A stretch of DNA of 64,000 nt from Flavobacteriales bacterium 34_180_T64. Its GTDB lineage: Bacteria > Bacteroidota > Bacteroidia > Flavobacteriales > Flavobacteriaceae. The position numbers and the translations under genes were made by a program. Positions 40,453 to 57,933 of this stretch are shown in pieces (within the stretch, counting starts at the first letter, position 1; each line of letters starts with the position of its first letter). The stretch covers positions 62,001-126,000 of the forward strand of contig MAAR01000004.1 of the NCBI GenBank assembly GCA_002162765.1. Direction: 5' to 3'. Below the pieces are notes generated by a model. The model saw only the letters and a program-made list of their open reading frames with translations, ran no database searches and had not been told where the DNA came from.

Positions 40453-40461
40453 TTTTATAAT

Positions 40462-41520
40462 ATGAAAAGAAGCGTATTCGTAATAAGTATGGCACTATCG
40501 ATAATGGCCTGTAAAGAGGGTTCAGTTAAAGATGTTACGGTAGATAAAAACCTCATAATAAAATCTGAAACCATAATATCTTCCGAATCAAATTTGGATA
40601 TGGTGTGGATAGAAGGTGGTTCGTTTCAAATGGGAGCGGTAGCTGAAGGACTTTACAAACGAGAATACCCTGCACATCAGGTGGAAGTTGATGGCTTTTG
40701 GATGGATATCCATGAAGTCACAAATGCGCAATATCAAGAATTTGTAGATGCTACCGGTTATAAAACAGTAGCAGAACGCCCTGTTGATTGGGAACAAATT
40801 AAAAAGGAGCTCCCGCCAAATACGCCGAAACCCCACGACAGTATTTTACGACCTGGTGCTCTCGTATTTAAATCGTCTCAGCAACCTGTGAGACTAGATA
40901 ATCCTGCAAATTGGTGGCAATGGACAATAGATGCAAATTGGAAACAGCCACAAGGACCAAACAGCACGATTTCTGACAAAATGGATCATCCAGTAGTACA
41001 TATTGCCTATGAAGATGCTGTAGCATATTGTGACTGGGCAGGTAAACGATTGCCAACAGAAGCGGAATGGGAGTTTGCTGCTAGAGGTGGTTTAGATGAG
41101 AAAAAATATACTTGGGGCGATGAAGATCCAAAGGATAGAGGAGATTTAGCGAATATTTATCATGGCGATTTTCCATATAACAATACTACCATAGATAAGT
41201 ATGCTGGTACAGCTCCAGTGATGCAATTTAAATCTAATGGCTATAAATTATATGACATGTCTGGGAATGTCTGGGAATGGTGTTCAGATTTTTATGATGA
41301 AAACTATTATAAAGAAGTCGCTGGAAAAATTTGTAAAAACCCTGAAGGATCAACAAAAGTCTATAACCCAAGAGATCCTTATGCCACAGAACGTGTCACG
41401 AAAGGCGGTTCTTATTTATGTCATGTTTCCTATTGTTATAATTATCGCCCAAGTGCAAGAGAAGGTTCCTCAGTAGATACTGGAATGTCTCATCTTGGAT
41501 TTAGATGTGTAAAAAAATAA
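40462..41520 (+). CDS. Formylglycine-generating enzyme, predicted lipoprotein
   Basis: Formylglycine-generating enzymes (FGE/SUMF1) convert the active-site Cys of type I sulfatases to formylglycine using O2 and copper. The 352-aa protein has a lipoprotein signal (LSIMAC, Cys 17) and an FGE domain from about residue 45: MVWIEGGSFQMGA, VTNAQYQEFVDATGY, VAYCDWAGKRLPTEAEWEFA, GNVWEWCSDFY. The catalytic region reads KGGSYLCHVSYCYNYRPSA; Cys320 and Cys325 match in spacing the two catalytic cysteines of human FGE, so this is probably a true FGE rather than a SUMF1-fold relative. A membrane-anchored, exported FGE implies maturation of the exported sulfatase encoded three genes downstream. Confidence 0.9.
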   Translation: MKRSVFVISMALSIMACKEGSVKDVTVDKNLIIKSETIISSESNLDMVWIEGGSFQMGAVAEGLYKREYPAHQVEVDGFWMDIHEVTNAQYQEFVDATGYKTVAERPVDWEQIKKELPPNTPKPHDSILRPGALVFKSSQQPVRLDNPANWWQWTIDANWKQPQGPNSTISDKMDHPVVHIAYEDAVAYCDWAGKRLPTEAEWEFAARGGLDEKKYTWGDEDPKDRGDLANIYHGDFPYNNTTIDKYAGTAPVMQFKSNGYKLYDMSGNVWEWCSDFYDENYYKEVAGKICKNPEGSTKVYNPRDPYATERVTKGGSYLCHVSYCYNYRPSAREGSSVDTGMSHLGFRCVKK

Positions 41521-41531
41521 TATAAAATACT

Positions 41532-42278
41532 ATGAAAAAGCAACTTATATTTTTGGCATTAACGCTATTATCTATCTCAGTTTTAGGACAGGATAATACA
41601 CAAAATGAAGATCAAACACCTACCGGATGGAAATTTGATATTGCACCCTACATATGGACGGCTAGTCTCTCGGCTGATATTTCTTTTTTAAACCAATCGG
41701 TGCCTGTAGAAGCAAATTTCAAAGATGTATTAGAGAATTTAAAAATGGGGTTTTTGATGCATGCTGAGGCTAGAAAGGACCGCTTTTTTATTGCTGGTGA
41801 CATCGTGTATTTAAAAATTGGAAAAGACGGCACTATAGATGCACTGTCTTTAAATACAGATTTAACGATTAAAGAAACCGTCGCCGAATTAACTGGTGGA
41901 TACACGCTGTTAGAATCTCATAATGCCCTTTATTTAGATGGCTTTGTAGGGTTTAGGTATTTCGGAATTAAAACAGAAATTAATGCGGATTCTCAAAATA
42001 TTTTAGACAAATCCATAAATGCCACTGACCCAATTTTAGGTCTGCGGTTAAGAACCGACTCTAATAAATGGACAAATAGTTTGCGCGCCGATATTGGAGG
42101 CTTTGGAATTGGATCCGAATTTAGTTGGAAAACCAACCTTTTATTTGGTTATAAATTTTCAGATTCATTTTCTTTGCACGCCGGATTTCAAGCCTACGGT
42201 ATTGATTATGAAAAAGACGCATTCGGTTTGGACATGACCAGCGCAGGATTCTTGTTAGGAGGTAATTTTAAATTATAA
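41532..42278 (+). CDS. Outer-membrane beta-barrel protein
   Basis: The 248-aa protein has a signal peptide (about 1-19, SISVLG|Q) and a barrel pattern starting GWKFDIAPYIWTASLSADIS, with paired strands and a final LGGNFKL. The start of the mature part (APYIW) is typical of a large family of bacterial outer-membrane barrels with no assigned role. It is 11 nt after the FGE gene, so the two are probably co-transcribed. Confidence 0.78.
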   Translation: MKKQLIFLALTLLSISVLGQDNTQNEDQTPTGWKFDIAPYIWTASLSADISFLNQSVPVEANFKDVLENLKMGFLMHAEARKDRFFIAGDIVYLKIGKDGTIDALSLNTDLTIKETVAELTGGYTLLESHNALYLDGFVGFRYFGIKTEINADSQNILDKSINATDPILGLRLRTDSNKWTNSLRADIGGFGIGSEFSWKTNLLFGYKFSDSFSLHAGFQAYGIDYEKDAFGLDMTSAGFLLGGNFKL

Positions 42279-42376
42279 TTAAAAAAAGGAAGACTAAGTT
42301 AAAATATAAATAAATAAAATTTAAATCGCACATAACTATTACTAGGTGTCTAGTATTAATTGCCTCACAAAAGCCT

Positions 42377-43270: not shown

Positions 43271-43468
43271 TCAAATTATTCTGATAAATCGGCTAGGGAG
43301 CAGATTCCTAGATTCTCAATTATAAATGTTTGTATTATTGATAAAGGCGATGCCTAACGATATCATTAATTGCAGTCACAGTTAATGAAATATAATCTCT
43401 ATTACCGTTAAAATATTAAAATATATTTATTAAATTAACAATAGGCTTGTCATCTTTTTCTTATTTTT

Positions 43469-43477
43469 ATAGTCTTG
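43469..43477 (+). promoter_or_regulatory. Possible Bacteroidota-type promoter of the sulfatase gene
   Basis: TAGTCTTG at 43470-43477 differs at one base from the Bacteroidota -7 consensus TAnnTTTG, and a CTTG sits about 20 nt upstream (43446-43449), near the expected -33 TTTG position. It lies about 80 nt before the sulfatase start in a 286-bp gap that otherwise shows no structure. This is a weak by-eye match. Confidence 0.3.
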
Positions 43478-43556
43478 ACAAATAAAGTAAACAGTTCAGA
43501 TTTAACTCGCCCTGAGGAAATTCTATTAACCGCAATAAACTTTTAAAACCACTAAA

Positions 43557-45905
43557 ATGAAAAATTACTATTTTATTGTGCTATTATGCCTATTTTTTAT
43601 TGGCTGTCAGCAAACCAGTAATAAGGAAAACTCAAACGATCAAGTCACTGAAAACTTTGAAAAATACGGACAAGAGTTCGAGGGTAAAATAGCAGAGTCT
43701 TATGCTGACTCTGAAGAATGGTGGCCGAAAAAGAAACGGCCAGCTAAAGACTCACCTAATGTTATAATTTTTCTTTTAGATGATGTAGGCTATGCTCAAG
43801 TAGGCTCCTTTGGTGGATTGATTGAAACACCAAATATCGATAATCTAGCTGCTAACGGATTACGTTATAATAATTTCCATACAACGGCTCTTTGTTCACC
43901 ATCTCGTGCCACTTTAATGGCTGGACGTAATCCGCATAAAATCGGATTGGGTAGTCATGCTTTAACGGCCATGGGATTCCCTGGTTATAATGCAGTTGTA
44001 CCACCATCAGCAAAGTCTGTTGCAAATTATTTGCAAGAAGAAGGTTATGTGAATTATGCTTTAGGAAAGTGGGATCATACACCTTTATACGAGGTCTCAC
44101 AAGTAGGGCCTTTTGATAGATGGCCGAGTGATGAAGGGTTTGATCATGGCTATAACTTTATGGCGGCCGATGTCCATCAATTCGTCCCTGTAATGTGGAA
44201 TGATCACTCTCCGGAACCATACCGAAAATCGAAACATTTAGATGCCGATCTTGCCGATAGAGCAATCGATTGGATCACTGGTCATAAATCTTTAGATGAT
44301 GAGTTGCCATTTATGATGCTTTGGGCTTCGGGCTCCATGCACTCACCACATCATGCCCCCGATGAATATATTGCAAAATACAAAGGTAAATTTGATATGG
44401 GTTGGGATGTTGCCAGAGAGCAAATTATTACCAACCAAAAGGCACTGGGGATAGTTCCTGAAAGTACAGATCTGTCTGGAAGAATTGATGTCATTCCAGC
44501 CTGGGAAAGCCTAGATGCTGACCACAAAAGAATGTATGCGCGACAAATGGAAGTTTTTGCGGCACAAATGGAGCACGTAGATTATCAAATTGGAAGAGTG
44601 GTTGAAACACTTAGACGTATTGGGGAATTAGACAATACGCTTATTATTGTTACAGCTGATAATGGTGCTTCAGGTGAGGGTGGACTAGCTGGTACTTTTA
44701 ATGAAACTTATGTATTAAATGGTTTGCAAACCCCATTCGATGCAAATCTTAGAAATTACGACAATTGGGGACAAGCAGACTCGTATCCACATTATCATGC
44801 AGGTTGGGCCATGGCTGGGAACACCCCTTTCAAATATTTCAAACAATCAGAACATCGCGGTGGGCAAGCCGATCATTTAGTTGTGCATTGGCCAGCAGGA
44901 ATTAAGGCTAAAGGCGAAATTAGAGGACAATACCACCATATTAGTGATATTGCACCTACAATTCTGGAAGCAGCAAACATTGAGCGTCCTGATGTGTACC
45001 ATGGCATTGTACAGCAACCTTTTACGGGTGTACCAATGAATTATTCATTCGATAATGCGAGCGCACCAAATGCTAAAGACAACCAATATTATGAAATGTT
45101 TGGTAATCGTGCCATCTGGGAAGATGGATGGAAAGCGGTGACCTTACATGCTAATCGCATGCCATGGGATATAAATGTAAGGGGTGATTTTGCTGATGAT
45201 GTCTGGGAACTTTATAATGTAGCCGAAGATTTCTCTGAAAGCCATGATTTGGCAGCAGAAAATCCTGAAAAATTAGAAGAGCTTAAAAAGCTATTCGAGG
45301 AAGTGGCTTGGGAGAATAATGTATATCCAATGTATGATGATATGTTAGCCCGTTTAAATGGGGTTAATTATGTACTCTTTGGTGATCAAAAAGAATTCAC
45401 ATATTACGCTCCAGGAGCAATTCGAATTGCAGAAAAAGCTTCTGCTCCAGTAAAAGGGCGTTCCCATATGATAGAAACCACTATCGATTTGAAAGGTGAT
45501 GAAGAAGGTGTTATTGTAGCCTGCGGGGGAATGACCGGGGGTTATTCAATGTACATTAAAGACAATAAACTTCATTTCGATTATAACTTTTTAGATGGTG
45601 TACATCACCACTTGACTTCTGGGGAATTACCAAGAGGTAAAACCGATCTGAAGTTTAATTTTATTTTAGACCGCTCAATAATCGATGGCACATTAAAACC
45701 TTGGGCTGGTGATGGCGAATTGTATGTAAATGGTGAAAAGGTCGACGAAAAATATTTCGATTCCATGCATATAAGTACGTATTCTTTAGCCGAGACTTTT
45801 GATGTTGGAATGGATACCGGAACTCAGGTGGACCCAGACTATGAAGGTGGAACATTTGCATTCACAGGTGTATTAGATCGAGTAAAAATTACATTAACAG
45901 ATTAA
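43557..45905 (+). CDS. Type I sulfatase (arylsulfatase family), lipoprotein, Cys-type
   Basis: The 782-aa protein hydrolyses sulfate esters by family. It has a lipoprotein signal (CLFFIGC, Cys near residue 17). The sulfatase core starts with VIIFLLDDVGYAQVGSFGG (metal-binding Asp pair, near residue 72) and has TTALCSPSRATLMAGR, where the Cys near residue 113 in the C-x-P-S-R motif is the site of formylglycine formation. LGKWDHTP and the later VTADNGASGEGGLAGTF complete the metal site. The last 200 residues form a beta-rich C-terminal domain (KGRSHMIETTIDLK, LHFDYNFLDG). It resembles the S1_4 arylsulfatases. Substrate not predictable. It is the gene before the DUF3604 array and depends, by inference, on the FGE lipoprotein at 40462. 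Confidence 0.95.
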   Translation: MKNYYFIVLLCLFFIGCQQTSNKENSNDQVTENFEKYGQEFEGKIAESYADSEEWWPKKKRPAKDSPNVIIFLLDDVGYAQVGSFGGLIETPNIDNLAANGLRYNNFHTTALCSPSRATLMAGRNPHKIGLGSHALTAMGFPGYNAVVPPSAKSVANYLQEEGYVNYALGKWDHTPLYEVSQVGPFDRWPSDEGFDHGYNFMAADVHQFVPVMWNDHSPEPYRKSKHLDADLADRAIDWITGHKSLDDELPFMMLWASGSMHSPHHAPDEYIAKYKGKFDMGWDVAREQIITNQKALGIVPESTDLSGRIDVIPAWESLDADHKRMYARQMEVFAAQMEHVDYQIGRVVETLRRIGELDNTLIIVTADNGASGEGGLAGTFNETYVLNGLQTPFDANLRNYDNWGQADSYPHYHAGWAMAGNTPFKYFKQSEHRGGQADHLVVHWPAGIKAKGEIRGQYHHISDIAPTILEAANIERPDVYHGIVQQPFTGVPMNYSFDNASAPNAKDNQYYEMFGNRAIWEDGWKAVTLHANRMPWDINVRGDFADDVWELYNVAEDFSESHDLAAENPEKLEELKKLFEEVAWENNVYPMYDDMLARLNGVNYVLFGDQKEFTYYAPGAIRIAEKASAPVKGRSHMIETTIDLKGDEEGVIVACGGMTGGYSMYIKDNKLHFDYNFLDGVHHHLTSGELPRGKTDLKFNFILDRSIIDGTLKPWAGDGELYVNGEKVDEKYFDSMHISTYSLAETFDVGMDTGTQVDPDYEGGTFAFTGVLDRVKITLTD

Positions 45906-45987
45906 CATAGTTTCAATTTTAATATTAATAAGCTGGATCAGATTATTTTTTGGTTCAGCTTAATTATAAATAATTTAAATACACATT

Positions 45988-47901
45988 ATGAAAGTGAAAA
46001 CCACCATGTTATTTATAATCCCAGCACTTTTATTAGTGGCTTGTGGAGGACCAGTAGAAAAGACATCTGATATAACTTCAGATGAAAAAGCGACAACAAT
46101 AGACAAACAAAAACAATACTCTCCCTATGCTGGGAATGACATTCCAAGAAACGTATATTGGGGGGATACCCATTTGCACACTAAATTGTCTCCTGATGCT
46201 AATTTAACTGGTAACGGAAAACTGGGGCCTGAAGATGCGTTTAGATTTGCATCTGGTTATGAAGTTACTACCAACAAAGGAATGCAAGCCAAATTGCAAC
46301 GCCCTTTAGACTTTTTAGTGGTAACAGACCATGCAGAATACATGGGATTACTACCTGGAATTGCAGAAGGGAATGAAATATTGATGGCATCGGATTATGG
46401 AAAGGACTTGGCAAAACAACTTCAAGGAACTGAAGAAGATAAATTTAACGCAACACTTGCTGTTGTTGCAGACATAGGTAATGCTGATGCAAAATTTAGA
46501 TCAAAAGAATTTGAACAAACGGTATGGCAAACGGTAACTGCTGCTGCAGACAAGTACAATGACCCAGGGAAATTTACAGCTTTTATTGGTTACGAATTTA
46601 CTTCAATGCCTAAAGTGAACAATTTACACCGTTGTGTCATCTTTAAAGATGATGCTTCTTATGCAGATCAAATTGTTCCATTCTCAGCTTTTGACAGTGA
46701 AAACCCAGAAGATTTATGGGTCTTTTTACAAGGGTATGAGGATAAAACTGGTGGTAACGTATTGGCTATAGCGCACAACGGAAATGTTAGTAATGGACTT
46801 ATGTTTATGGACGAGGATTATGCAGGAAAACCGTTGACTAAAGAATATGCAGAAACGAGAATGAAATGGGAGCCATTGTATGAGGTAACTCAAATTAAAG
46901 GTGATGGAGAAACTCACCCTATGCTATCTCCTAAAGATGAGTTTGCAGATTTTGAAACTTGGGATTGGGGGAATTTAGATGCTACCATCAAAAAGGAAGA
47001 GGCCATGTTAAAACATGAGTACGCAAGGTCAGCACTAAAATTAGGATTACAATTAGAAACGAAATTGGGAGTAAATCCTTATAAATTTGGACTTCAAGGA
47101 GCTTCAGATGCACACTCATCACTTGCTGGAGAAGCCGAAAATAATTATTGGGGAAAGCTTTCTATGTATGAGCCGGGCCCCGAAAGAGCAGAGCATGATT
47201 TTTTAGAAAAATCAAATGGTAGAGTTGTAGATAAAAAAGCTGATGTAATGGGTGCCGCTGGTTATACAGGAGTTTGGGCAAAAGAAAATACCAGAGCAGC
47301 AATTTTTGAGGCGATGGAAAGAAAAGAGGTGTATGCTACCACAGGACCAAGAATGACAGTACGTCTTTTTGGTGGATGGGATTTTACAAAAGCAGATGTA
47401 TACAGTGCTTCCATGTCTGACATTGGTTACCAAAAAGGCGTGCCAATGGGAGGAAATTTAGTAGGATCTGAAAGTGATGCGCCAACATTTATGGTAGTCG
47501 CTACCAAAGATGTTACTGGAGCTAACTTAGATAGAGTTCAAATTGTAAAAGGTTGGGAAGATGCCAATGGAGAAGTACACGAAAAAGTATACAATGTGGC
47601 ATTATCTGACGACAGAAAATTAAGCGACAACCCTAAACCAGTAGGCAATACAGTTGACCTAAAAAATGCAACTTACAGCAACAGCATAGGAGATGCAGAA
47701 TTAACTGCACTTTGGGTAGACCCCAACTTTGATGCTTCACAAGATGCTTTTTATTATGTAAGAGTATTAGAAATTCCAACTCCACGTTGGACAGCTTATG
47801 ATGCTAAGTTTTTTGGAACTGAATTAAGTGAGGATGGACCACCAAATATAATTCAAGAAAGAGCATATACTTCACCAATTTGGTATACACCTAAAAACTA
47901 A
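45988..47901 (+). CDS. DUF3604 lipoprotein, copy 1 (PHP-like metal motifs)
   Basis: The 637-aa protein has a lipoprotein signal (IPALLLVACG). DUF3604 proteins resemble the PHP metallohydrolase superfamily, and four PHP-like metal-ligand motifs are visible: YWGDTHLHT (about 58-66), LDFLVVTDHAEY (about 108-119), AIAHNGNVSNG (about 260-270) and ASDAHSSLAGE (about 372-382). A shared C-terminal region contains KEVYATTGPRMTVRLFGGWD, LDRVQIVKGW and the terminal AYTSPIWYTPK. So it is predicted to be an exported metal-dependent hydrolase, perhaps a phosphoesterase or amidohydrolase; no activity is established for the family to my knowledge. It is the first of four tandem paralogues, about 80 nt after the sulfatase gene. 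Confidence 0.9.
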   Translation: MKVKTTMLFIIPALLLVACGGPVEKTSDITSDEKATTIDKQKQYSPYAGNDIPRNVYWGDTHLHTKLSPDANLTGNGKLGPEDAFRFASGYEVTTNKGMQAKLQRPLDFLVVTDHAEYMGLLPGIAEGNEILMASDYGKDLAKQLQGTEEDKFNATLAVVADIGNADAKFRSKEFEQTVWQTVTAAADKYNDPGKFTAFIGYEFTSMPKVNNLHRCVIFKDDASYADQIVPFSAFDSENPEDLWVFLQGYEDKTGGNVLAIAHNGNVSNGLMFMDEDYAGKPLTKEYAETRMKWEPLYEVTQIKGDGETHPMLSPKDEFADFETWDWGNLDATIKKEEAMLKHEYARSALKLGLQLETKLGVNPYKFGLQGASDAHSSLAGEAENNYWGKLSMYEPGPERAEHDFLEKSNGRVVDKKADVMGAAGYTGVWAKENTRAAIFEAMERKEVYATTGPRMTVRLFGGWDFTKADVYSASMSDIGYQKGVPMGGNLVGSESDAPTFMVVATKDVTGANLDRVQIVKGWEDANGEVHEKVYNVALSDDRKLSDNPKPVGNTVDLKNATYSNSIGDAELTALWVDPNFDASQDAFYYVRVLEIPTPRWTAYDAKFFGTELSEDGPPNIIQERAYTSPIWYTPKN

Positions 47902-47912
47902 AAATGATAAAA

Positions 47913-49826
47913 ATGAAACATACTTATTTATTAGCCATTCCAGCACTATTATTAGCTGCTTGTGGAGGTTCAGAAGAAAAAGTAACTAATTTAACTTCAA
48001 ATTCTGAAGCCACTGTAACAAGTATAACCTCAGAAAAACGAGACAATTACTCTCCTTTTGTAGGTGATGATTATCCACAAGATGTTTATTTCGGTGATTT
48101 GCACTTGCACACCTCTTTTTCAGTAGATGCAGGATTGGTTGGATGTAAGTTAGGACCAGAAGATGCTTATCGTTTTGCAAGTGGAGAAGAAGTTGTTACA
48201 AGCACAGGACTAAAGGCAAAACTGAATAGACCACTCGATTTTTTAATGGTATCAGACCACGGAACCAATTTAGGTATTCCACCAATGCTATGGGAAGCCG
48301 ATCCAGATTTATTAGCTAATGAAATAGGGAAGAAATGGTACGATTTAGTTCAAGAAGGAAAGGGAAAGGAAGGTGTTTATCTACCATGGTTGCAAACTAC
48401 AATGAAGGGAATCGACCAAATCAAAAGTGAGAAGATTATGCGGAATGCGTGGACCAGAGAAATGGATGCCGCAGAAAAATACAACCAACCAGGAGTGTTT
48501 ACTGCAATTATTGGATATGAATGGACATCAATGCCAGGCGGTAATAATTTACATAGAGTAGTTGTATTTAAAGACGGTAAAGAAAAAGTGAATAATATTC
48601 TTCCATTTACTGCATTTGATTCACAAGACCCAGAAGATTTATGGAAGTACATGTCTAATTATGAGCAAAAGTATGGTGGTAGCGTTTTGGCAATACCTCA
48701 CAATGGTAATATGTCCGATGGATTAATGTTCTCTGTAGAACGGATGAATGGGGAACCTATAGATGCAGAATATGCTACCAATAGAATGAAATGGGAACCT
48801 TTGTATGAGGTTACTCAAATAAAAGGAGATGGTGAAACGCATCCCAAATTATCAACTACAGATGAATTTGCAGATTATGGCACATGGGACATCAATCCAT
48901 TCAAAGGACCGGCAGAGAATACGAAAAGATATGAAACTGAATATGCACGTACAGCTCTCCAAATAGGGTTGCAGCAAAAGCAAAAAATTGGTGTAAATCC
49001 ATTTAAGTTTGGGATGATAGGAAGTACTGACGCTCACACTGGGTTGACTGGATGGCAAGAAAATAATTACATGGGTAAATTTCCTTCATCAGAACCAAGT
49101 GCTGAAAGATATGAGGAAGTACTCATACCTTCCCCACTTGATAAAAAATATGATATTATGACATGGATGGAGGTAGCCGGAGGACTTACTGCAGTTTGGG
49201 CTAAAGAAAATACGCGTGAAGCATTGTTTGATGCCATGCAACAAAAAGAAACCTATGCGACTACCGGAACGCGACTGCGAGTACGATTTTTTGCGGGTTG
49301 GGAGTATACCAAGCAAGATGCAACAAGATCTGATTTTGCGAAAAATGCTTACGCCAATGGAGTACCAATGGGTAGTGATTTAACTGATGGAAATGGCAAA
49401 AGCCCTAACTTCTTAATCCAAGCCATGAAAGATCCAGATGGTGCTAATTTGGATAGAGTTCAAGTAATAAAAGGATGGGTAGATGCCAATGGTGAGAGAC
49501 AAGAACGAATTTATGATGTTGCTGTATCTGATGGAAGAGTTATTGATAAAACTGGTAGATGTAAAACATCTGTAGGATCTACAGTGAATGTAAAAGAAGC
49601 AACCTATGATAACAGCATAGGAAGTACTTCAATGACAACATATTGGTCAGACCCTGATTTTGATGCTGCATTAGATGCCGTTTATTATGTACGGGTATTG
49701 GAAATTCCTACACCTACATGGCTAGCTTATGATGCAAACTTCTATAAGTTGTCCATGCCAAAAGAATATCCAATGACACATCAAGAAAGAGCTTATACTT
49801 CACCAATTTGGTATGCACCTAAATAA
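47913..49826 (+). CDS. DUF3604 lipoprotein, copy 2 (divergent second motif)
   Basis: The 637-aa product (MKHTYLLAIPALLLAACGG; an ATG nine bases upstream at 47904 adds three residues) is a lipoprotein DUF3604 paralogue. Motifs: YFGDLHLHTSFSVDAG, AIPHNGNMSDG and STDAHTGLTGWQENN. The second motif reads LMVSDHGTNLGIPP, where the other three copies have T/A-DHAEY, so Ala-Glu-Tyr is replaced by Gly-Thr-Asn after the metal His. This may shift substrate specificity. The signal peptide DNA is almost identical to that of copy 3. The gap to copy 1 is 11 nt from the preferred start. Confidence 0.9.
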   Translation: MKHTYLLAIPALLLAACGGSEEKVTNLTSNSEATVTSITSEKRDNYSPFVGDDYPQDVYFGDLHLHTSFSVDAGLVGCKLGPEDAYRFASGEEVVTSTGLKAKLNRPLDFLMVSDHGTNLGIPPMLWEADPDLLANEIGKKWYDLVQEGKGKEGVYLPWLQTTMKGIDQIKSEKIMRNAWTREMDAAEKYNQPGVFTAIIGYEWTSMPGGNNLHRVVVFKDGKEKVNNILPFTAFDSQDPEDLWKYMSNYEQKYGGSVLAIPHNGNMSDGLMFSVERMNGEPIDAEYATNRMKWEPLYEVTQIKGDGETHPKLSTTDEFADYGTWDINPFKGPAENTKRYETEYARTALQIGLQQKQKIGVNPFKFGMIGSTDAHTGLTGWQENNYMGKFPSSEPSAERYEEVLIPSPLDKKYDIMTWMEVAGGLTAVWAKENTREALFDAMQQKETYATTGTRLRVRFFAGWEYTKQDATRSDFAKNAYANGVPMGSDLTDGNGKSPNFLIQAMKDPDGANLDRVQVIKGWVDANGERQERIYDVAVSDGRVIDKTGRCKTSVGSTVNVKEATYDNSIGSTSMTTYWSDPDFDAALDAVYYVRVLEIPTPTWLAYDANFYKLSMPKEYPMTHQERAYTSPIWYAPK

Positions 49827-49837
49827 AAATGATAAAA

Positions 49838-51751
49838 ATGAAACATACTTATTTATTAGCCATTCCAGCGCTATTATTAGCTGCTTGTGGAGGCTCAGAA
49901 GAAAAAACTGCAGGTGAAGCTTCAAGTTCTGAAGATACTTTTAAAAGTATAACCTCAGAAAAACGAGACAGTTATTCGCCCTATGCCGAGGATAAATTCC
50001 CTAAGGATGTTTATTTCGGAGATACCCACCTACACACATCCTATTCGCCAGATGCGGGTTTGATGGGGAATCGAAATATTGACCCAACAGAGGCATTTCG
50101 TTTTGCGATGGGTAAAGTGGTAGAGGCACACAATGGAATGAAAGTGAAGCTTAATCGACCACTTGATTTTTTGGTGGTTACTGATCACGCAGAATACTTT
50201 GGTATTGCTCCAGGTCTGTACGATTCTGATGCTGACCTGATGGCTACTAAAAAGGGAAAAGAGTGGATTGGGTTGTTACAGGAAGGAACTGACGAATCGA
50301 TCATCAAGGCAGCCTACGAGATCATGACGGGAAAATCCTGGGAAATCAAGGACAAAACTTTCTTTAATAAGGCATGGTTGAGGGCCACAGATGCGGCCGA
50401 AAAAAACAATCAGCCGGGCAAGTTCACCGCGTTTATAGGTTACGAATGGACCTCGGCACCCAGTGGAGACAATCTTCATCGTGTTGTCATCTTTAAAGAC
50501 GACACCACCAAAGCTAATCAGGTCCAGCCGTTCTCGGCCCTCGACAGTGAGGATCCGGAGGATCTTTGGGCATGGATGGACAACTACGAGAAGAAGACTG
50601 GGGGAGAAATTCTGGCGATTCCACATAACGGCAATGTGTCCAATGGTCTGATGTTTTTGGACAAGGACATGAAAGGTAAGCCATTGACCCCGGATTACGC
50701 CAAGGAACGCGCACGTTGGGAGCCCTTAATTGAAGTTTCGCAGATGAAGGGGGATGGAGAAGCACATCCTTTCCTTTCGCCTGAGGATGAGTTTGCCGAC
50801 TTTGAAACTTGGGACAAAGGGAATGTTCAAGCGTCAGCTCCCAAGAAAAAAAGCATGCTGAAATATGAGTACGCACGGGAAGCGCTGAAAAGAGGACTCA
50901 TGCACGAGAAAGATCTGGGAACCAACCCTTTCAAATTTGGCATGGTTGGGAGCACTGATTCACACACAGGGCTGTCAACAGCCGAGGAAGACAATCAATG
51001 GGGAAAATTGTCGATCTATGAACCCAGTAGCGACCGAACAGAACACCCCATTATCCCAGCCCAAGGGGAAGATAAGAGTACGGAAATCATGGGCTACGGT
51101 TCAGCTGCTTCCGGCTATGCAGCCGTATGGGCGACCGAGAACACTCGGGAAGCGATCTTCGAGGCCATGCAGCGCAAAGAAGTTTATGCCACCACTGGTC
51201 CGCGAATCACTGTTCGGTTCTTCGGTGGCTGGGATTACGAGAACGATGATGTCTATGATCCCCGATACGCGAAAATAGGTTATGAAAAGGGTGTCCCTAT
51301 GGGGGGTGACTTATCTAGTGCGCCCAAAGGAAAATCGCCAGTTTTCATGGTACTGGCGACCAAGGACCCAGATGGAGCTAACCTCGACCGTGTACAGATT
51401 GTAAAAGGGTGGCAAGATAAAGAGGGTAAGCTCCACGAAAAGGTTATTGACATAGACCTATCAGACGACCGAAAACCCGGAGCGAAAGCAGCTTCGATTG
51501 GCTCTACCGTAGATGTCAAGAATGCGTCCTATAAGAATACCATCGGAGATGTCCAATTGAGTGGTGTTTGGACCGATCCGAATTTCGATTCCAAACAACG
51601 GGCGTTCTATTATGTTCGCGTGATCGAAATCCCTAAACCTCGATGGACTGCTTATGACGCCAATTTCTTTAATATAGAAATGCCGAAAGAGGCAAAAATG
51701 ACTGTTCAGGATAGAGCTTATACTTCTCCAATTTGGTATACGCCAAAATAA
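49838..51751 (+). CDS. DUF3604 lipoprotein, copy 3 (GC-richer mosaic)
   Basis: The 637-aa product (preferred start MKHTYLLAIPALLLAACGG; ATG at 49829 also possible) has all four motifs: YFGDTHLHTSYSPDAG, FLVVTDHAEYFGIAP, AIPHNGNVSNG and STDSHTGLSTAEED. The protein aligns with its neighbours throughout, but the DNA from roughly 50.25 to 51.65 kb has clearly higher GC and uses codons such as CGC, ACC, CTG and GAG that are rare elsewhere in the window, while both ends are AT-rich and nearly identical to copy 2 or 4. This points to recombination with a foreign or older homologue. Confidence 0.9.
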   Translation: MKHTYLLAIPALLLAACGGSEEKTAGEASSSEDTFKSITSEKRDSYSPYAEDKFPKDVYFGDTHLHTSYSPDAGLMGNRNIDPTEAFRFAMGKVVEAHNGMKVKLNRPLDFLVVTDHAEYFGIAPGLYDSDADLMATKKGKEWIGLLQEGTDESIIKAAYEIMTGKSWEIKDKTFFNKAWLRATDAAEKNNQPGKFTAFIGYEWTSAPSGDNLHRVVIFKDDTTKANQVQPFSALDSEDPEDLWAWMDNYEKKTGGEILAIPHNGNVSNGLMFLDKDMKGKPLTPDYAKERARWEPLIEVSQMKGDGEAHPFLSPEDEFADFETWDKGNVQASAPKKKSMLKYEYAREALKRGLMHEKDLGTNPFKFGMVGSTDSHTGLSTAEEDNQWGKLSIYEPSSDRTEHPIIPAQGEDKSTEIMGYGSAASGYAAVWATENTREAIFEAMQRKEVYATTGPRITVRFFGGWDYENDDVYDPRYAKIGYEKGVPMGGDLSSAPKGKSPVFMVLATKDPDGANLDRVQIVKGWQDKEGKLHEKVIDIDLSDDRKPGAKAASIGSTVDVKNASYKNTIGDVQLSGVWTDPNFDSKQRAFYYVRVIEIPKPRWTAYDANFFNIEMPKEAKMTVQDRAYTSPIWYTPK

Positions 51752-51762
51752 AAATAATAAAA

Positions 51763-53691
51763 ATGAAACATACCTATTTAATTGCTATCCCAGCACTTTT
51801 ACTAGCTGCTTGTGGAGCACCAGAAGAAAAAACGGAAAATACAACAACATCATCTGATGCTACGGTAACAACTTTAACTTCAGAAAAAAGAGACAATTAC
51901 TCTCCTAATGTAGGTGATAATTATCCTCAGGATGTCTATTTTGGGGATACCCATTTACATACTTCTAATTCTCCTGATGCTGGTTTTTTTGGTACTACGC
52001 TTGGGCCAGAAGATGCTTATCGTTATGCTACTGGAGAAGAAGTGGTTTCAAGTACTGGACTTAAAACAAAATTAATTCGCCCATTAGACTTCTTAGTAAT
52101 CGCAGATCATGCTGAGTATTTTGGTATTGTTCCGAACTTGTTAGTTGGTAACCCAGAATTGTTAAAAGATCCTGTTGGAAAAAGGTGGTACGACACTTAC
52201 AAAGCTGACCCTAAAACGGGTGGAATGACAATATTTCAAGAAATAGTTCAATCCTCTACTGGTGAAACCAATGAGGAGATGATTAAAAACCCAAGACTAA
52301 AGAGATCAACATGGTTAGCTGCAAATGCAGTTGCAGAAAAATACAATGTTCCTGGGAAATTTACGGCTTTTTTAGGTTATGAGTGGAGTTCAGTAATAAA
52401 AGGAAATAACTTACACCGAGTTGTTGTCTTTAAAGATGGTTCTGATAAGGCAAATCAAATTGTACCCATTTCATCTATGGATGGACTAGATCCAGAAACA
52501 CTATGGGAAGGTATGGCTGCTTATGAAGAAAAAACGGGTGGTCAAGTTTTAGCTATTCCACATAACGGAAATTGGAGTAATGGAATGATGTTTCAGATGG
52601 AAACAGTTGAAGGAAAACCATTTGATAAAGCTTACGCTGAAAATCGTGCAAGATGGGAACCCATTTATGAGGTAACCCAAATGAAAGGAGACGGTGAAGC
52701 ACATCCAATTTTATCACCTACCGATGAATTTGCTGATTTTGAAACTTGGGATAAAACGAATATTACAGCTCGAGTTCCAAAAACGAACGAAATGATACAA
52801 ACGGAATATGCCCGTGAAGCATTAAAAGATGGATTACTGTTAGAAGCCAGTTTAGGGATCAACCCGTTTAAGTTTGGATTAATTGGTTCAACAGATGCAC
52901 ATACTGGATTGGCAAGTACTAGGGAAGACAACAATATGTCTAAAATGCCACATATGGAACCTAGCAATCACCGAGCAACAGAACCTTTAATAAAATCACC
53001 AGTACATGATAGCTTGACATATTTCGGAGCAGATATTAGTGCAGCAGGTTTAGCTGCAGTTTGGGCAACAGAAAATTCACGTGAAGCAATTTGGGATGCC
53101 ATGAAAAGAAAAGAAGTGTATGCAACAACTGGCAACCGATTAAAAGTAAGAGTTTTTGGTGGTTGGGATTTTAAATCTTCAGATTTAACAAGACCCGATT
53201 TTGCAAAAAATGGATACAACAATGGAGTGCCAATGGGTGGAGATTTATCCGCTGCTGATGGTAATTCTCCTTCATTCCTAGTGAAAGCCTGGAAAGATGT
53301 TGATGGACCAAATTTAGATCGTGTTCAGATGATTAAAGGTTGGGTTGGTACTGAAGGCAAAAAACACGAAAAAATTTATGATCTGTCTGTTTCAGATGGC
53401 CGAACAATTGGCAAAGATGGAAGATGTAAATTATCTGTTGGGTCAACAGTTAATATTAAAGAAGCAACTTATGACAATACTATTGGTGACCCAATAATGT
53501 CTGTACAATGGACAGACCCAGAATTCGATGCAGGACAAAGAGCCTTTTATTATGTAAGAGTTATTGAAATACCAACTCCAAGATGGACAGCTTACGATGC
53601 TAAATTTTATAACATCGAGATGCCAGAAGGTACTGCAATGACTGTTCAAGATAGAGCGTACACATCACCAATTTGGTATACGCCAAAATAA
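51763..53691 (+). CDS. DUF3604 lipoprotein, copy 4
   Basis: The start at 51763 gives MKHTYLIAIPALLLAACGAP; an upstream ATG at 51733 lies inside copy 3 and is not supported. The 642-aa lipoprotein has YFGDTHLHTSNSPDAG, FLVIADHAEYFGIVP, AIPHNGNWSNG and STDAHTGLASTRED, and the shared C-terminus RAYTSPIWYTPK. Base composition is normal for the window. It ends the tandem array and is 12 nt upstream of the haem-type membrane gene, which suggests one transcript through the array into the downstream genes. Confidence 0.9.
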   Translation: MKHTYLIAIPALLLAACGAPEEKTENTTTSSDATVTTLTSEKRDNYSPNVGDNYPQDVYFGDTHLHTSNSPDAGFFGTTLGPEDAYRYATGEEVVSSTGLKTKLIRPLDFLVIADHAEYFGIVPNLLVGNPELLKDPVGKRWYDTYKADPKTGGMTIFQEIVQSSTGETNEEMIKNPRLKRSTWLAANAVAEKYNVPGKFTAFLGYEWSSVIKGNNLHRVVVFKDGSDKANQIVPISSMDGLDPETLWEGMAAYEEKTGGQVLAIPHNGNWSNGMMFQMETVEGKPFDKAYAENRARWEPIYEVTQMKGDGEAHPILSPTDEFADFETWDKTNITARVPKTNEMIQTEYAREALKDGLLLEASLGINPFKFGLIGSTDAHTGLASTREDNNMSKMPHMEPSNHRATEPLIKSPVHDSLTYFGADISAAGLAAVWATENSREAIWDAMKRKEVYATTGNRLKVRVFGGWDFKSSDLTRPDFAKNGYNNGVPMGGDLSAADGNSPSFLVKAWKDVDGPNLDRVQMIKGWVGTEGKKHEKIYDLSVSDGRTIGKDGRCKLSVGSTVNIKEATYDNTIGDPIMSVQWTDPEFDAGQRAFYYVRVIEIPTPRWTAYDAKFYNIEMPEGTAMTVQDRAYTSPIWYTPK

Positions 53692-53703
53692 ATACAATAG
53701 TTA

Positions 53704-54357
53704 ATGACGAATTCAGAATCACACATTAAAAATGCTGCCGGTAGTATCATTGCCGTTACCAGTATACTTTCAATTGGTTATGCAATCTTGCGTTACCACA
53801 TTGTGGGTCCAGTTCCGTGGAGTGAGTTTCCTTTTTTCATTCTGAACAAAGGAATTTCTTTAGCAGCGTTTATACTACTCACCTTTAATTTTGCATTGGG
53901 TCCACTGAATAATCTGGGAGTCAAAGTTTCGGAACAATGGCTCAACGCACGTGCTGCACTAGGAATGACCGGCTTTCTGTTAGTGTTCATTCATGCACTC
54001 ATCAGCTTCATGCTTTTTAACCCTGAAGTGTTTGGGAAATTTTTTGAAGAAAATGGGCACCTCACTTTAATGGCTGGGTTAAGTATGTTAGGAGGTATTG
54101 TATCCTTTGTAGTGCTTTGGGTTATGAACCTGTCTTTTAAAACTGATCTAAAAGAAGATAAAGCATTCATTCGGTTTATTACGTCTCGAAAATTTTTACT
54201 TGTGGCCATGCTATTTGCCATTGCACATATATTTTTTATGGGATATAAGGGTTGGATGGAACCCTCTGACTGGCATGGAGGTTTACCACCCATCAGTCTG
54301 GTGGCATTTTCTTTTTGTACAGTTGGATATGTCATTAATTTAATAGGTAGAAAATAA
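53704..54357 (+). CDS. Ferric-reductase-like haem membrane protein
   Basis: The 217-aa protein has five or six membrane helices and His residues in positions expected for haem ligands (VFIHALISF, AIAHIFFMG), with an overall arrangement like ferric-reductase-type membrane domains (YedZ/MsrQ-like, PF01794). No NAD or flavin domain is attached. In the YedZ family, this type of protein passes electrons from quinol or flavin to a periplasmic partner. Here it could supply electrons to an envelope reaction linked to the sulfatase/DUF3604 genes. The assignment rests on helix pattern and His placement, not on a long motif. Confidence 0.7.
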   Translation: MTNSESHIKNAAGSIIAVTSILSIGYAILRYHIVGPVPWSEFPFFILNKGISLAAFILLTFNFALGPLNNLGVKVSEQWLNARAALGMTGFLLVFIHALISFMLFNPEVFGKFFEENGHLTLMAGLSMLGGIVSFVVLWVMNLSFKTDLKEDKAFIRFITSRKFLLVAMLFAIAHIFFMGYKGWMEPSDWHGGLPPISLVAFSFCTVGYVINLIGRK

Positions 54358-54407
54358 AACTGTGTTTAATATAACAAAACCCTAATTTGCCCTAAATAAT
54401 TTTATTC

Positions 54408-55247
54408 ATGAAAAAAATAGTTAAAGAACCCCTATTCCATTTTTTATTGATTGGCGCCATAATATTCCTGGTGTACATGATGGTTAATACAGAACAAAAT
54501 ACACAAGAGATAGTTATAGACGATAATTTAGTTAATGAGCTTGCTTCAAAATGGGAGTTAAAAAGAAATAGACGTCCTACTTTAGAAGAAATGGAAGGCA
54601 TGATCAATCAGTATGTAGAACAAGAAGTATTATATCAGGAAGCTTTAACCATGAACCTCGATCATAACGATGAAATTGTAAAACGTAGATTGGCTCAAAA
54701 GATGGAATTCATTTCTGATAACATGGCCGAATCATTACAACCAACTTTGGAGATGCTGGAATCCTATTACGAGGAGCATAAAGATAATTATGCAAAGGCT
54801 CCGATTTATAGTATGCAGGTCCTTTATTTTAGCGAAGACAAACGAGAAAATGCAAGTGCCGATGCACTTGCCGCTCTTAACCATGAAAACCCCTTGGAGT
54901 TGGGAGACAACATTTCGCTACCAAGTAACTACAAGGATGAAAGTGCTTTTAAAATAACTAGAGATTATGGACGTGTTTTTACCAACGCATTAGATTCCTT
55001 AGAAACAGGAAAATGGGTAGGCCCGGTACAATCAGGTTTCGGTATTCATTTAGTGAATATTTTAGAAAAAAAAGCGGCTGGTTATTATGAATTTGATGAC
55101 ATAGCAGAAAAAGTAAGTACGGATTACAATTTTGATGCAAGCAATGATTTTAAACAAGAATTGATTGCAACTTTATTGAAGAATTACAGTATTCAAATTG
55201 ATGTAGAAGACCCTTCATTAAAAAAGGAATTGGATGAAAAATATTAG
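54408..55247 (+). CDS. Membrane-anchored parvulin-type peptidyl-prolyl isomerase
   Basis: The 279-aa protein has one N-terminal membrane helix (about residues 9-26) that anchors it with the rest in the periplasm. A helical segment (RPTLEEMEGMINQYVEQEVL, as in SurA/PpiD N-domains) leads to a parvulin-like domain in which the last part is clear: SLETGKWVGPVQSGFGIHLV near residues 198-220. Such proteins help fold exported proteins, here possibly the sulfatase or DUF3604 lipoproteins. It overlaps the HupE gene by 14 nt, so the two are translationally coupled. Parvulin plus HupE pairs recur next to DUF3604 genes in marine bacteria to my recollection. Confidence 0.85.
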   Translation: MKKIVKEPLFHFLLIGAIIFLVYMMVNTEQNTQEIVIDDNLVNELASKWELKRNRRPTLEEMEGMINQYVEQEVLYQEALTMNLDHNDEIVKRRLAQKMEFISDNMAESLQPTLEMLESYYEEHKDNYAKAPIYSMQVLYFSEDKRENASADALAALNHENPLELGDNISLPSNYKDESAFKITRDYGRVFTNALDSLETGKWVGPVQSGFGIHLVNILEKKAAGYYEFDDIAEKVSTDYNFDASNDFKQELIATLLKNYSIQIDVEDPSLKKELDEKY

Positions 55248-56208
55248 CACTCTTATAATTTTTATTTTAATGTCTGTTTCGCTTTTTGCGCATGAAGTTA
55301 GACCTGCATATTTTAGTGTTACACAATTAAATGACTCCACATATCAGGTAGTATGGAAAATCCCTGCACTAGGAACGGCCATTCCAAAAATTTATCCAGT
55401 TCTTCCAGCAAACTGGGAGATTATTGATGAGCAATCTAATTTGCTTCCAGGTAATTTACGTAGAACTTACATTGTACAAATTAACAATGGAATTGAGGGA
55501 AATGTGTTATTCTTTGATGGCCAGAATAAAACGCTTATCGACGTATTGGTTGCCATTAAAAAAAGTAATGGTGTTCAATATTCTGCCATGATTAAACCTT
55601 CAAATCCGCGTTATTTAATTCCCGTCACACCAGATAGGTTTAGTGTCATTAAAACATATTCACAATTAGGTGTTGAACATATTTTACTTGGGATTGATCA
55701 TCTTTTATTCGTACTAGCACTATTGCTACTTACCAAAGGTTTTAAAATGATCTTGAAAACCATAACAGCTTTTACCATAGCACATAGTATTACACTGTCT
55801 TTGGCCGCTTTAGGTTTTGTTGGGCTTCCTGCTGCTCCAGTTGAAGCTGTAATTGCCTTAAGCATTGTATTTCTGGCTGTCGAACTAATACATTATATGA
55901 ATGGCCGTCAAGGATTAACAGCGCGTTTTCCATGGATTGTTGCGTTTACTTTTGGCTTATTACATGGTTTTGGGTTCGCACGTGCCCTAGTTGATCTAGG
56001 CTTACCTCAAATAGATATCCCTTGGGCATTATTATTTTTTAATGTAGGAGTTGAACTCGGGCAATTGGCTTTTGTGATTATTACATTAGGTATGATTTGG
56101 CTACTTAGGAAAATAAATTGGCCAGATTGGATTAAAAAAGTACCACCTTACGCTATTGGAAGCTTAGCATCGTTTTGGATGATTGAACGTGTATTGGCCT
56201 TTTTTTAA
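55234..56208 (+). CDS. HupE/UreJ-family membrane permease with N-terminal periplasmic domain
   Basis: The 324-aa protein has a signal peptide (about 1-19, SLFA|H), a beta-rich periplasmic domain of about 110 residues (EVRPAYFSVTQLNDSTYQVV), and six or more membrane helices carrying the HupE/UreJ_2 signature GVEHILLGIDHLLFVLALLL (His-x4-Asp-His), FTIAHSITLSLA, FGLLHGFGFA and FNVGVELGQL. Relatives in hydrogenase and urease gene sets carry nickel or cobalt; the substrate of this subfamily is not established. A role in metal supply for the predicted DUF3604 or phosphatase metalloenzymes would fit its location. Its start overlaps the parvulin gene. Confidence 0.9.
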   Translation: MKNISTLIIFILMSVSLFAHEVRPAYFSVTQLNDSTYQVVWKIPALGTAIPKIYPVLPANWEIIDEQSNLLPGNLRRTYIVQINNGIEGNVLFFDGQNKTLIDVLVAIKKSNGVQYSAMIKPSNPRYLIPVTPDRFSVIKTYSQLGVEHILLGIDHLLFVLALLLLTKGFKMILKTITAFTIAHSITLSLAALGFVGLPAAPVEAVIALSIVFLAVELIHYMNGRQGLTARFPWIVAFTFGLLHGFGFARALVDLGLPQIDIPWALLFFNVGVELGQLAFVIITLGMIWLLRKINWPDWIKKVPPYAIGSLASFWMIERVLAFF

Positions 56209-56231
56209 TCAAAAATAAGTATCTTAATATT

Positions 56232-57902
56232 ATGAAATACAAATTAGTGACATTACTATTAATTACTGCGTTTGGTTTTAGCCATGCCCAGGACTCAGAA
56301 TCTATTAGACCAAAATTGGTGTTGCAAATTACTGTTGATCAGTTTCGAGGTGATTTGCCAACACGATTTTTAGACCGTTTGGGTGAAGGGGGTTTACGAT
56401 ATCTTATAGAAAACGGCACCTATTACTCAAATGCACATTATAGACATGCAAATACAGAAACAGCTGTAGGACATGCCACACTCTTTACAGGAGCAGACCC
56501 TTCACGGCATGGTTTAGTCGGTAACAATTGGATTGATCCTTCAACAGGCGATGTGGTTTATAACACAGAGGATGCTCGTTATCATATAATAGGTAAGGAC
56601 CAAAAACCACATAATGGTGTCTCGCCAAACAATATTTTATCAACTACAATTGGCGATGAATTAGTAATTTCAAATGCAGGGCAATCTCGTGTGTTTAGTG
56701 TGTCAGTCAAAGACCGAGGAGCCATCATCCCAGGAGGACATGCGGGAAAAGCATTTTGGTATTCTAAAAGTTCAGGTAAATTTGTTACGAGCACCTATTA
56801 TTATGATGAATACCCACAATGGGCTCAGGACTGGAATGATTCGGGCCCAGCCGATCAATATAGAGGAAAGACATGGGATTTAATTCAAGATCCTTCCACA
56901 TACTATGCAAAAGATTTAGATGATCGTCCTTATGAAGCCGATTTTCAACCCTTAGGTAAAACCTTTCCACATCAATACGGTGACGATAAATATCTATATA
57001 CGAGATTGTCACTTTCACCAGCTGGTGATGAGTTGACCCTGGATTTTGCAAAAACGCTTATGAAAAATGAGAATGTTGGCCATGGGGTTAATACTGATTT
57101 CCTAGCGATTAGTTTTTCTTCAACCGACTATATCGGTCACCTATTCGGACCATCCAGTCTAGAAACTGAGGATAATATTTTAAGACTTGACAGAAATTTA
57201 GCTGATCTTTTTTCGTACGTAGATAAAACCGTTGGATTGAAAAATACACTAATCGTTTTATCCGCCGATCATGGTGCTCCAGAAGCTCCCGAATACATGA
57301 CAGAAATCGGCATGGAAGCGGGACGATTCGATTTCACTTATTTCAGAGAACAAGGACCTTTAAATGAGATATTAATGGAGCGATATGGTCGTGATGACTT
57401 GATTGCCACGCATAGTCATCCTTACCTCTATTTAAATATGGCTGCTATTGCAGAAGCAAAACTAGATTTAGAAGAAGTTGAAAATTTTATTGCCGATGAA
57501 GTCATGAAAATCCCGGGAATAGCATATGCGCAAACCAAGAGTGATCTACTAGAAGGGCGGATTTCAAACGCACCTTTGCAAGTCCAAATAAGACGAAATT
57601 TTCACCCGGTTCGTTCCGGTAATATCCATATGATTCAAGAACAATATTGGTTTTTACACTCAACAGATGAGGGACAAAAAATGGGGCTTGAAGGCATTGC
57701 AGCAATCCATGGATCGCCATGGGCGTATGACACCTATGTTCCTATATTTTTTGCAGGAAATGGAATCAAGGCACAAACAATTACAAGGCGTGTTTCACCA
57801 ACTGATATCGCACCAACGATTTCGAATTATTTAAATATTAAATTTCCATCTGGTTCTATTGGAAATCCGTTGAAAGAAGTCTTTATAAAAGAAAATAATT
57901 AA
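56232..57902 (+). CDS. PafA-like alkaline phosphatase superfamily enzyme
   Basis: The 556-aa protein is an alkaline phosphatase superfamily member (phosphate monoester hydrolase type). It has a signal peptide (about 1-19, FGFSHA|Q). VLQITVDQFRGD holds a metal-binding Asp; the nucleophile loop is NTETAVGHATLFTG (Thr in place of Ser, as in flavobacterial PafA, near residue 77); SVKDRGAIIPGGHAGKA carries the Lys-x-Arg pair (about 160 and 162) that marks PafA-type phosphomonoesterases. SSTDYIGH and LSADHGAPEAPEY give further metal ligands, and AAIHGSPWAYDTYVP the last His. It is likely periplasmic and zinc-dependent. It lies 24 nt after HupE in the same block, next to a second hydrolase class (sulfatase). 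Confidence 0.92.
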   Translation: MKYKLVTLLLITAFGFSHAQDSESIRPKLVLQITVDQFRGDLPTRFLDRLGEGGLRYLIENGTYYSNAHYRHANTETAVGHATLFTGADPSRHGLVGNNWIDPSTGDVVYNTEDARYHIIGKDQKPHNGVSPNNILSTTIGDELVISNAGQSRVFSVSVKDRGAIIPGGHAGKAFWYSKSSGKFVTSTYYYDEYPQWAQDWNDSGPADQYRGKTWDLIQDPSTYYAKDLDDRPYEADFQPLGKTFPHQYGDDKYLYTRLSLSPAGDELTLDFAKTLMKNENVGHGVNTDFLAISFSSTDYIGHLFGPSSLETEDNILRLDRNLADLFSYVDKTVGLKNTLIVLSADHGAPEAPEYMTEIGMEAGRFDFTYFREQGPLNEILMERYGRDDLIATHSHPYLYLNMAAIAEAKLDLEEVENFIADEVMKIPGIAYAQTKSDLLEGRISNAPLQVQIRRNFHPVRSGNIHMIQEQYWFLHSTDEGQKMGLEGIAAIHGSPWAYDTYVPIFFAGNGIKAQTITRRVSPTDIAPTISNYLNIKFPSGSIGNPLKEVFIKENN

Positions 57903-57933
57903 ATTTTATACTATTTAAAAATTCTACCAAAAA

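Follow-up and report, generated by a model that had tools for sequence, protein, structure and literature searches.

Which of the closely packed genes around a run of DUF3604 genes belong together, and what do the DUF3604 proteins need in order to work? The question is raised by a 64,000-nucleotide (nt) stretch of the Flavobacteriales bacterium 34_180_T64 genome (contig MAAR01000004.1, positions 62,001 to 126,000), called the window throughout. Here four tandem DUF3604 genes (copies a to d) lie among genes for a formylglycine-generating enzyme (FGE), a Cys-type sulfatase, a PpiC-type parvulin, a HupE permease and a PafA-like phosphatase, and the original prediction had taken everything from FGE to the phosphatase as one exported hydrolase system. 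In the open-access literature we found no described function for DUF3604, a name present there as annotation only, and no report of a linkage between DUF3604, parvulin and HupE, most subscription journals lying outside this search. Our analysis makes a strong case for a smaller conserved module, consisting of one to four DUF3604 genes, one membrane-anchored PpiC-type parvulin and one long HupE/UreJ-2. We are highly confident of the linkage between these three families, which gives a first handle on what DUF3604 hydrolases need to work.

We compared 82 DUF3604 loci, 80 from named genomes and two from genomes of the window's phylum. The 80 are the best of 540 confirmed matches, so the sample leans towards DUF3604 proteins resembling those of the window. 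Counts are of loci and not of genomes (L033 and L036 share one genome), many contigs are short, and the start codons of locus genes were set by rule. A parvulin relative was found in 39 of the 82 loci and a HupE relative in 35, and 35 held both. Each of these 35 two-partner loci had exactly one parvulin and one HupE, accompanied by one (17 loci), two (16) or three (2) DUF3604 copies; the pair was on the DUF3604 strand in 33 of them, and the parvulin–HupE gap was 300 nt or less in 33. Where at least 4 kb was available on both sides, 20 of 39 loci held both partners. Proximity was pronounced in the set of 80: parvulins made up 31 of the 287 genes within two positions of DUF3604 vs 5 of the 632 farther away, and the corresponding counts for HupE were 28/287 and 5/632. 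Clustering of the locus genes placed sulfatases in 12 loci and, besides DUF3604, parvulin, HupE and sulfatase, recovered no family in more than six. We also examined five of 78 plasmid records. The four annotated ones (Sinorhizobium meliloti accessoryA, R. leguminosarum pR132504, Rhodobacter sp. CZR27 and S. meliloti RCAM1115) all carry the order DUF3604–parvulin–HupE, and in the fifth, which is unannotated, the three genes were found by sequence scan.

The association was also visible between genomes. We used a class sample of 274 genomes around, and including, a Colwellia centre genome, and a phylum sample of 198 genomes that includes the window's own; their assignment to Gammaproteobacteria and Bacteroidota was inferred from the centre genomes, both of which (G224 and G000) were picked for having DUF3604. 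Some DUF3604 match was present in 26 class-sample genomes, of which 18 were judged strong, the eight with weak or fragmentary matches being counted as lacking DUF3604. Cut-offs were chosen after viewing the scores (for HupE, 188 bits or more and an alignment that covers the front domain; for parvulin, 90 bits or more), and the search scored at most 8 or 9 candidates per genome. We found the DUF3604-linked HupE clade in 15/18 strong-DUF3604 genomes vs 1/256 others (Fisher 7e-21) and the corresponding parvulin clade in 14/18 vs 1/256 (Fisher 4e-19), values that are optimistic owing to the shared ancestry of the genomes. Excluding the centre genome left 14/17 and 13/17, respectively. These counts treat as present a HupE at a contig end (G410; 380 bits, positions 78–328) and leave out one from a genome without DUF3604 (G437; 203 bits, positions 101–314), whose inclusion would give 2/256. 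The single exception among the 256 (G488) has both partners side by side near a contig end with no DUF3604 detected, and in one genome counted as lacking DUF3604 (G336) a weak DUF3604 match lies next to weak matches to parvulin and HupE. PF13795, the HupE membrane domain, was present overall in 79/274 class genomes, so the DUF3604 link belongs to one HupE clade. A DUF3604-type parvulin was found at 0 of 20 HupE loci of 7–12.5 kb, hand-picked from genomes without a DUF3604 match. In the phylum sample PF13795 was found in 53 genomes, mostly as short open reading frames (ORFs), and DUF3604 in 3/198; in all three (the window's, L148 and L150) a long HupE and a parvulin adjoin DUF3604. One other phylum genome (G064) has a PF13795 ORF of more than 300 residues, which lies outside the DUF3604-linked clade and has no adjacent DUF3604 or parvulin.

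Could the three families be functionally uncoupled and simply hitch-hike together on mobile DNA such as plasmids and islands? The module's presence on conjugative rhizobial plasmids and the mixing of DUF3604 subfamilies among phyla would fit such a history. However, among 27 genomes reached via the DUF3604 loci, hand-picked and mostly with long contigs, PF13795 was matched in 27/27; the parvulin–HupE pair was in the DUF3604 locus in 19 and elsewhere in 8. In other words, all eight genomes without the pair at the first DUF3604 locus (G201, G203, G204, G206, G217, G218, G220 and G222) have it elsewhere, and in four of them (G204, G217, G218 and G222) it adjoins another DUF3604 gene. With the pair also nearly absent from genomes without DUF3604, we regard uncoupled hitch-hiking as very improbable. 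Within this set, HupE is divergent in three genomes (G200, G209 and G211), and in two (G202 and G219) the pair is inside the DUF3604 locus on the opposite strand. The co-occurrence survey that the original prediction had proposed therefore bears out DUF3604, parvulin and HupE strongly, within loci and across genomes.

The two sides of the module gave different pictures in trees. In one built from 66 HupE membrane domains, a single clade took in 42 of 44 DUF3604-linked rows and 0 of 21 unlinked rows; the two linked rows outside it adjoin very divergent DUF3604 genes. This clade spans Pseudomonadota, Bacteroidota, Planctomycetota and Acidobacteriota, and its Bacteroidota rows, the window's included, stay together. 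By contrast, in the DUF3604 tree (67 rows) the Bacteroidota rows were scattered and phyla were mixed. Window copies a and c grouped with a Colwellia protein, and b and d fell in another large group, where the nearest row to copy b by path was copy d. The Maribacter DUF3604 grouped with an Acidobacteriota enzyme, yet among HupE proteins the closest to that of the window comes from Maribacter (83% identity). The four window copies, the only DUF3604 genes found in this genome (3.16 Mb, 91% complete), are of 637–652 residues and score 786–799 bits each, and the other three are 52–58% identical to the first. The contrast between the two trees is what one would expect if a stable pair served enzymes that can replace one another, which falls short of proof.

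What kind of enzyme the pair might serve is suggested by an AlphaFold2 model of copy c (predicted local distance difference test, pLDDT, 90.4; predicted template-modelling score, pTM, 0.89), whose predicted fold is that of the PHP superfamily. The top solved fold match was 3e38 (Z 15.6, root-mean-square deviation 3.5 over 230 residues), and other PHP matches were 2anu (TM0559; Z 14.9 over 206 residues), endonuclease Q (12.6) and PsfC (12.3); families missing from the structure-match listings were not treated as excluded. A C-terminal beta-sandwich (approximately residues 459–640) gave weak fold matches (Z about 4), and sequence and profile searches of the PDB with DUF3604 gave no match. Nine residues are invariant in 54 aligned DUF3604 sequences: H67, H69, D119, H120, E206, H217, H266, D377 and H379. 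By this alignment all four parts of what we take to be the PHP metal-site motif scheme (HxH, DH, H and DxH) are present, as H67/H69, D119/H120, H266 and D377/H379. The CehA/McbA family NF038032 was matched weakly by 22 of the 54 proteins (best E 1.6e-5); window copies a and c scored 21.6 and 20.6 bits against a cut-off of 80, and b and d gave no match. As modelled, then, DUF3604 proteins are PHP-fold metallohydrolases. Their most likely chemistry, by analogy, is ester or phosphodiester cleavage, which we favour because the PHP-type enzymes with known activity that are exported or carry a signal peptide are Sb-PDE and, judging by the family name, CehA.

The HupE of the module also has a suggestive predicted structure. 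The model of the window protein places a beta-sandwich ahead of the membrane helices, and the closest folds to this front domain were those of zinc-bound ZrgA (Z 10.0), PA4063 (Z 9.9) and the Cu-bound Ang-1 domain of HupE/UreJ-2 (9gce, Z 8.0); ion-channel domains came next, at Z 8.0 and lower. A PF13795 membrane domain behind an extracytoplasmic beta-sandwich is the architecture of the Ang-1 'anglerases', and the window HupE, as modelled, shares it. With the cleavage site placed by eye, the first mature residue of the window HupE is His. We considered a His-brace at this N-terminus, which would be expected to have an invariant first His, and dropped it: of 27 HupE sequences, 18 start with His and 9 with Asp, so no His-brace is claimed, and the DUF3604-linked clade does not have the invariant N-terminal His of the 'anglerases'. 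A parvulin–HupE fusion was likewise dropped, since five HupE ORFs of 713–895 residues gave HupE matches alone when scanned, with no parvulin or DUF3604 part. Divergent HupE-like proteins that are extended by a long stretch at the C-terminus, with lengths from about 730 residues upwards, occur in three loci (L034 12388–14580, L038 6228–8417 and L212 3513–6197), in the first two beside DUF3604 and parvulin genes.

We propose that parvulin and HupE form a service pair that folds and metal-loads interchangeable exported PHP hydrolases, a model to which we give roughly even odds. In it, the DUF3604 proteins would be exported PHP-superfamily hydrolases whose metal centre is multinuclear and whose predicted substrates are extracytoplasmic esters or phosphodiesters. 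The membrane-anchored parvulin would fold them on exit from the Sec pathway, and HupE, with its periplasmic domain of a metal-binding type, would capture or move the metal destined for their active sites. DUF3604 enzymes could be exchanged and could multiply, to four in the window, while the pair stays single. A bolder version is that DUF3604 proteins are widespread, horizontally moving envelope metallohydrolases dependent on their own foldase and a periplasm-facing metal permease. HupE would then deliver metal to the periplasmic side and not import it, and in the pair exported PHP enzymes would have their first known metal-loading apparatus of a dedicated kind; this version we advance only tentatively, as the less probable form.

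Metal could instead flow inwards. DUF3604 enzymes might cleave metal-holding organic ligands or esters outside the cell, HupE might import the freed metal, and parvulin might fold either protein. In the available parts of the Ang-1-HupE report, Cu is bound at 74 nM and Ni at 220 nM, with a proposed feed of metal into the permease (PMC12537917), and the window HupE front domain resembles Ang-1 in predicted fold. However, DUF3604 multiplies and diverges while HupE is single per locus, a pattern easier to reconcile with a shared service than with a single transporter that requires many hydrolases, and a TonB-receptor-like family (judged by eye) occurs in only six of the clustered loci. We consider this metal-acquisition scheme unlikely.

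Several observations weigh against the service-pair model. At the level of loci, the pair is absent or incomplete in 47 of 82, and so it is in 19 of the 39 whose flanks each extend for 4 kb or more. Among the 18 strong-DUF3604 genomes of the class sample, the HupE call is missing in three (G235, G317 and G402) and parvulin in four (the same three and G410). Contigs limit some of these cases (the DUF3604 contig of G235 is 3.5 kb, the HupE contig of G410 is 7.1 kb, and G317 carries a HupE fragment), but G402 has no pair around DUF3604 on a 126-kb contig and is thus, within the limits of its assembly, a genuine exception. Regarding metal binding, the Z of 8.0 for 9gce is a common level for the tool, equal to that of ion-channel rows, with ZrgA and PA4063 barely above it; sequence similarity of the front domain to solved domains was sought and not detected, and the candidate N-terminal metal residue varies. 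Finally, the Ang-HupE work, in the parts available, proposes that metal is captured and taken up by the cell (PMC12537917), an inward direction, whereas a lipoprotein exported through Sec should gain its metal in the periplasm.

We now turn to the other genes of the window (Table 1). All ORFs from 40462 to 58758 were confirmed and, as originally described, are co-oriented. Family searches likewise confirmed the FGE with both cysteines, the Cys-type sulfatase, the four DUF3604 genes, the parvulin, HupE and the PafA-like enzyme. The short gaps held in part: they are at most 82 nt throughout 43557–58758, but 286 nt precede the sulfatase gene and 98 nt precede the gene at 42377, so the tight run is 43557–58758 and FGE belongs to a separate upstream run. 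Of the reported overlaps, that between copies c and d hinges on a TTG start, and an internal ATG would abolish it. The reading of the product of 53704–54357 as a haem protein did not stand up, as it has no Pfam match and haem is unproven. Lipobox-like and signal-peptide-like N-termini were assessed by eye. A scan for the −33/−7 pattern, which we take to be the Bacteroidota-type promoter, gave one match, at 56755 inside a gene; sigma-70-like sites were scarcer than in shuffles (52 vs 67.5), and terminator-like sites were commoner (22 vs 13.8), many of them within genes. Operon boundaries were therefore drawn from the gaps only.

Table 1. Genes of the DUF3604 region, in window coordinates
Feature	Coordinates	Strand	Remarks
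Formylglycine-generating enzyme, lipoprotein-like N-terminus (by eye)	40462..41520	+	PF03781 275.7 bits; outside conserved module
Gene between FGE and sulfatase	starts 41532	+	no Pfam match
Gene between FGE and sulfatase	starts 42377	+	PF13557
Cys-type sulfatase lipoprotein	43557..45905	+	PF00884, CSPSR, 1hdh; frequent but optional neighbour
DUF3604 copy a, exported lipoprotein (by eye), predicted PHP metallohydrolase	45988..47901	+	PF12228 795.9 bits
DUF3604 copy b	47904..49826	+	PF12228 786.5 bits
DUF3604 copy c	49829..51751	+	PF12228 799.1 bits; AlphaFold2 model pLDDT 90.4, predicted PHP fold
DUF3604 copy d, TTG start as listed, internal ATG start likely	51733..53691	+	PF12228 797 bits
Membrane protein, originally read as 'haem protein', optional neighbour	53704..54357	+	no Pfam match; relatives in 6/82 DUF3604 loci
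PpiC-type parvulin, N-terminal membrane anchor (by eye), partner 1	54408..55247	+	PF13145 (Rotamase_2) 58.9 bits
Long HupE/UreJ-2 with signal peptide, beta-sandwich front domain and membrane permease domain, partner 2	55234..56208	+	PF13795 (HupE_UreJ_2) 163.4 bits
PafA-like alkaline phosphatase	56232..57902	+	NF042991 513.7 bits; outside conserved module
Probable outer-membrane protein (by eye)	57934..58758	+	no Pfam match; relatives in 6/82 DUF3604 loci

The enzymes on either side of the module fared unevenly. FGE is secure as a family member, by its score and by two active-site cysteines in SYLCHVSYC that align to 6s07, and its best solved relatives are FGEs. Given its lipoprotein-like N-terminus, sulfatase maturation would occur outside the cytoplasm. 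The nearest solved relative of the sulfatase is the arylsulfatase 1hdh. The phosphatase falls below the PafA equivalog NF042991 (cut-off 650 bits), and its best solved relative is PafA (5tj3). The original prediction made these enzymes a catabolic operon in which FGE, sulfatase, DUF3604 and the PafA-like enzyme act in sequence to strip an external (algal) compound of its sulfate and phosphate. Co-orientation and short gaps over 43557–58758 are consistent with this, as is the modest enrichment of sulfatases, present in 16 of 82 loci and forming 14 of the 287 genes within two positions of DUF3604 vs 7 of 632 farther away. A gammaproteobacterial metagenome-assembled genome (MAG) also has a sulfatase (L033 14460–16880) that is 72% identical to the window's over 785 residues, and genes for the membrane protein, DUF3604, parvulin and HupE share its stretch; the sulfatase gene has probably crossed between phyla, unless the MAG is misbinned. 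However, FGE is found in 1/82 loci and PafA-like enzymes in 0/82, no glycoside hydrolase or SusCD match was obtained among the genes scanned (39994–58758), and the FGE and sulfatase runs are 286 nt apart. FGE relatives (E up to 1e-50) are present in 26/198 phylum genomes and in two of the three with DUF3604, and on these counts FGE was rejected as a module member. As FGE and the PafA-like gene fail to co-occur with DUF3604, the FGE-to-PafA stretch is not one conserved system, and the sequential pathway seems to us improbable. It is nevertheless possible that the window's enzymes remove sulfate and phosphate from an external compound. Under the service-pair model, the sulfatase, the membrane protein and the PafA-like phosphatase would be local additions, perhaps working on the same substrates as DUF3604 or on those it releases.

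Other features of the window were noted in passing. Copy c has a GC content at third codon positions of 0.466 vs 0.217–0.339 for the other genes listed between 38930 and 61104, and may be a recent import into the tandem array. Upstream lie genes for three giant proteins (4802–16138, 16615–22353 and 22504–29253; 3778, 1912 and 2249 residues) that combine HYR domains with sorting tails for type IX secretion, and GC is 0.464 in the 24–26 kb part of the window, within this stretch. These tails and the nearest rows in the HupE tree both point to Bacteroidota as the window's phylum. Small lipoprotein-like genes, mutually alike by eye, flank the region on both sides (35419–36057, 36073–36750 and 60418–61104); a Pfam scan of those at 35419 and 60418 gave no match.

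Near-obligate partners make DUF3604 a testable system, with genes to co-express and a predicted metal dependence, and make the module a place to study the folding and metallation of exported multinuclear metalloenzymes. The linked HupE clade spans four phyla, so a function for DUF3604 would annotate many genomes.

Among the closest known systems is Sb-PDE of Sphingobium sp. TCM1, a PHP-superfamily zinc phosphodiesterase with a signal peptide and 2.1 zinc equivalents (PMC5460133); it shares with DUF3604 the export signal and the superfamily predicted for the latter. Sb-PDE differs in its 45.8 kDa subunit and its assignment to PF02811, and the available passages of its report give it no DUF3604 assignment and no parvulin–HupE partner (PMC5460133). 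In CehA/McbA carbamate hydrolases, according to the source as available, His residues matter (NF038032; PMC8292978). These hydrolases show a weak family similarity to DUF3604, but the window copies are not members at the cut-off of 80 bits. On the metal side, the periplasmic zinc-binding proteins ZrgA and PA4063 (8f1b, 7aly and 7ahw) have the fold predicted for the HupE front domain (Z about 10, 7–15% identity) and are stand-alone proteins. The nickel permease HupE of Rhizobium leguminosarum serves hydrogenase and, to our knowledge, has no extracytoplasmic domain of the window-HupE kind. It has in common with the window protein the membrane domain of the HupE/UreJ superfamily (cited in PMC12537917). 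Further counterparts are the Ang-1-HupE/UreJ-2 'anglerases', which resemble the window HupE in signal peptide, a beta-sandwich of similar predicted fold (Z 8.0) and a PF13795 membrane domain. They differ in their first mature residue, which in the available text is His in 100% of Ang-1-HupE vs His or Asp in the DUF3604-linked clade, and in their neighbours, given there as DUF4198, indigoidine A-like and PfkB, the words DUF3604 and isomerase being absent from the main text (PMC12537917). The linkage described here thus gives a genomic context to one HupE clade related to these recently described metal-fishing proteins.

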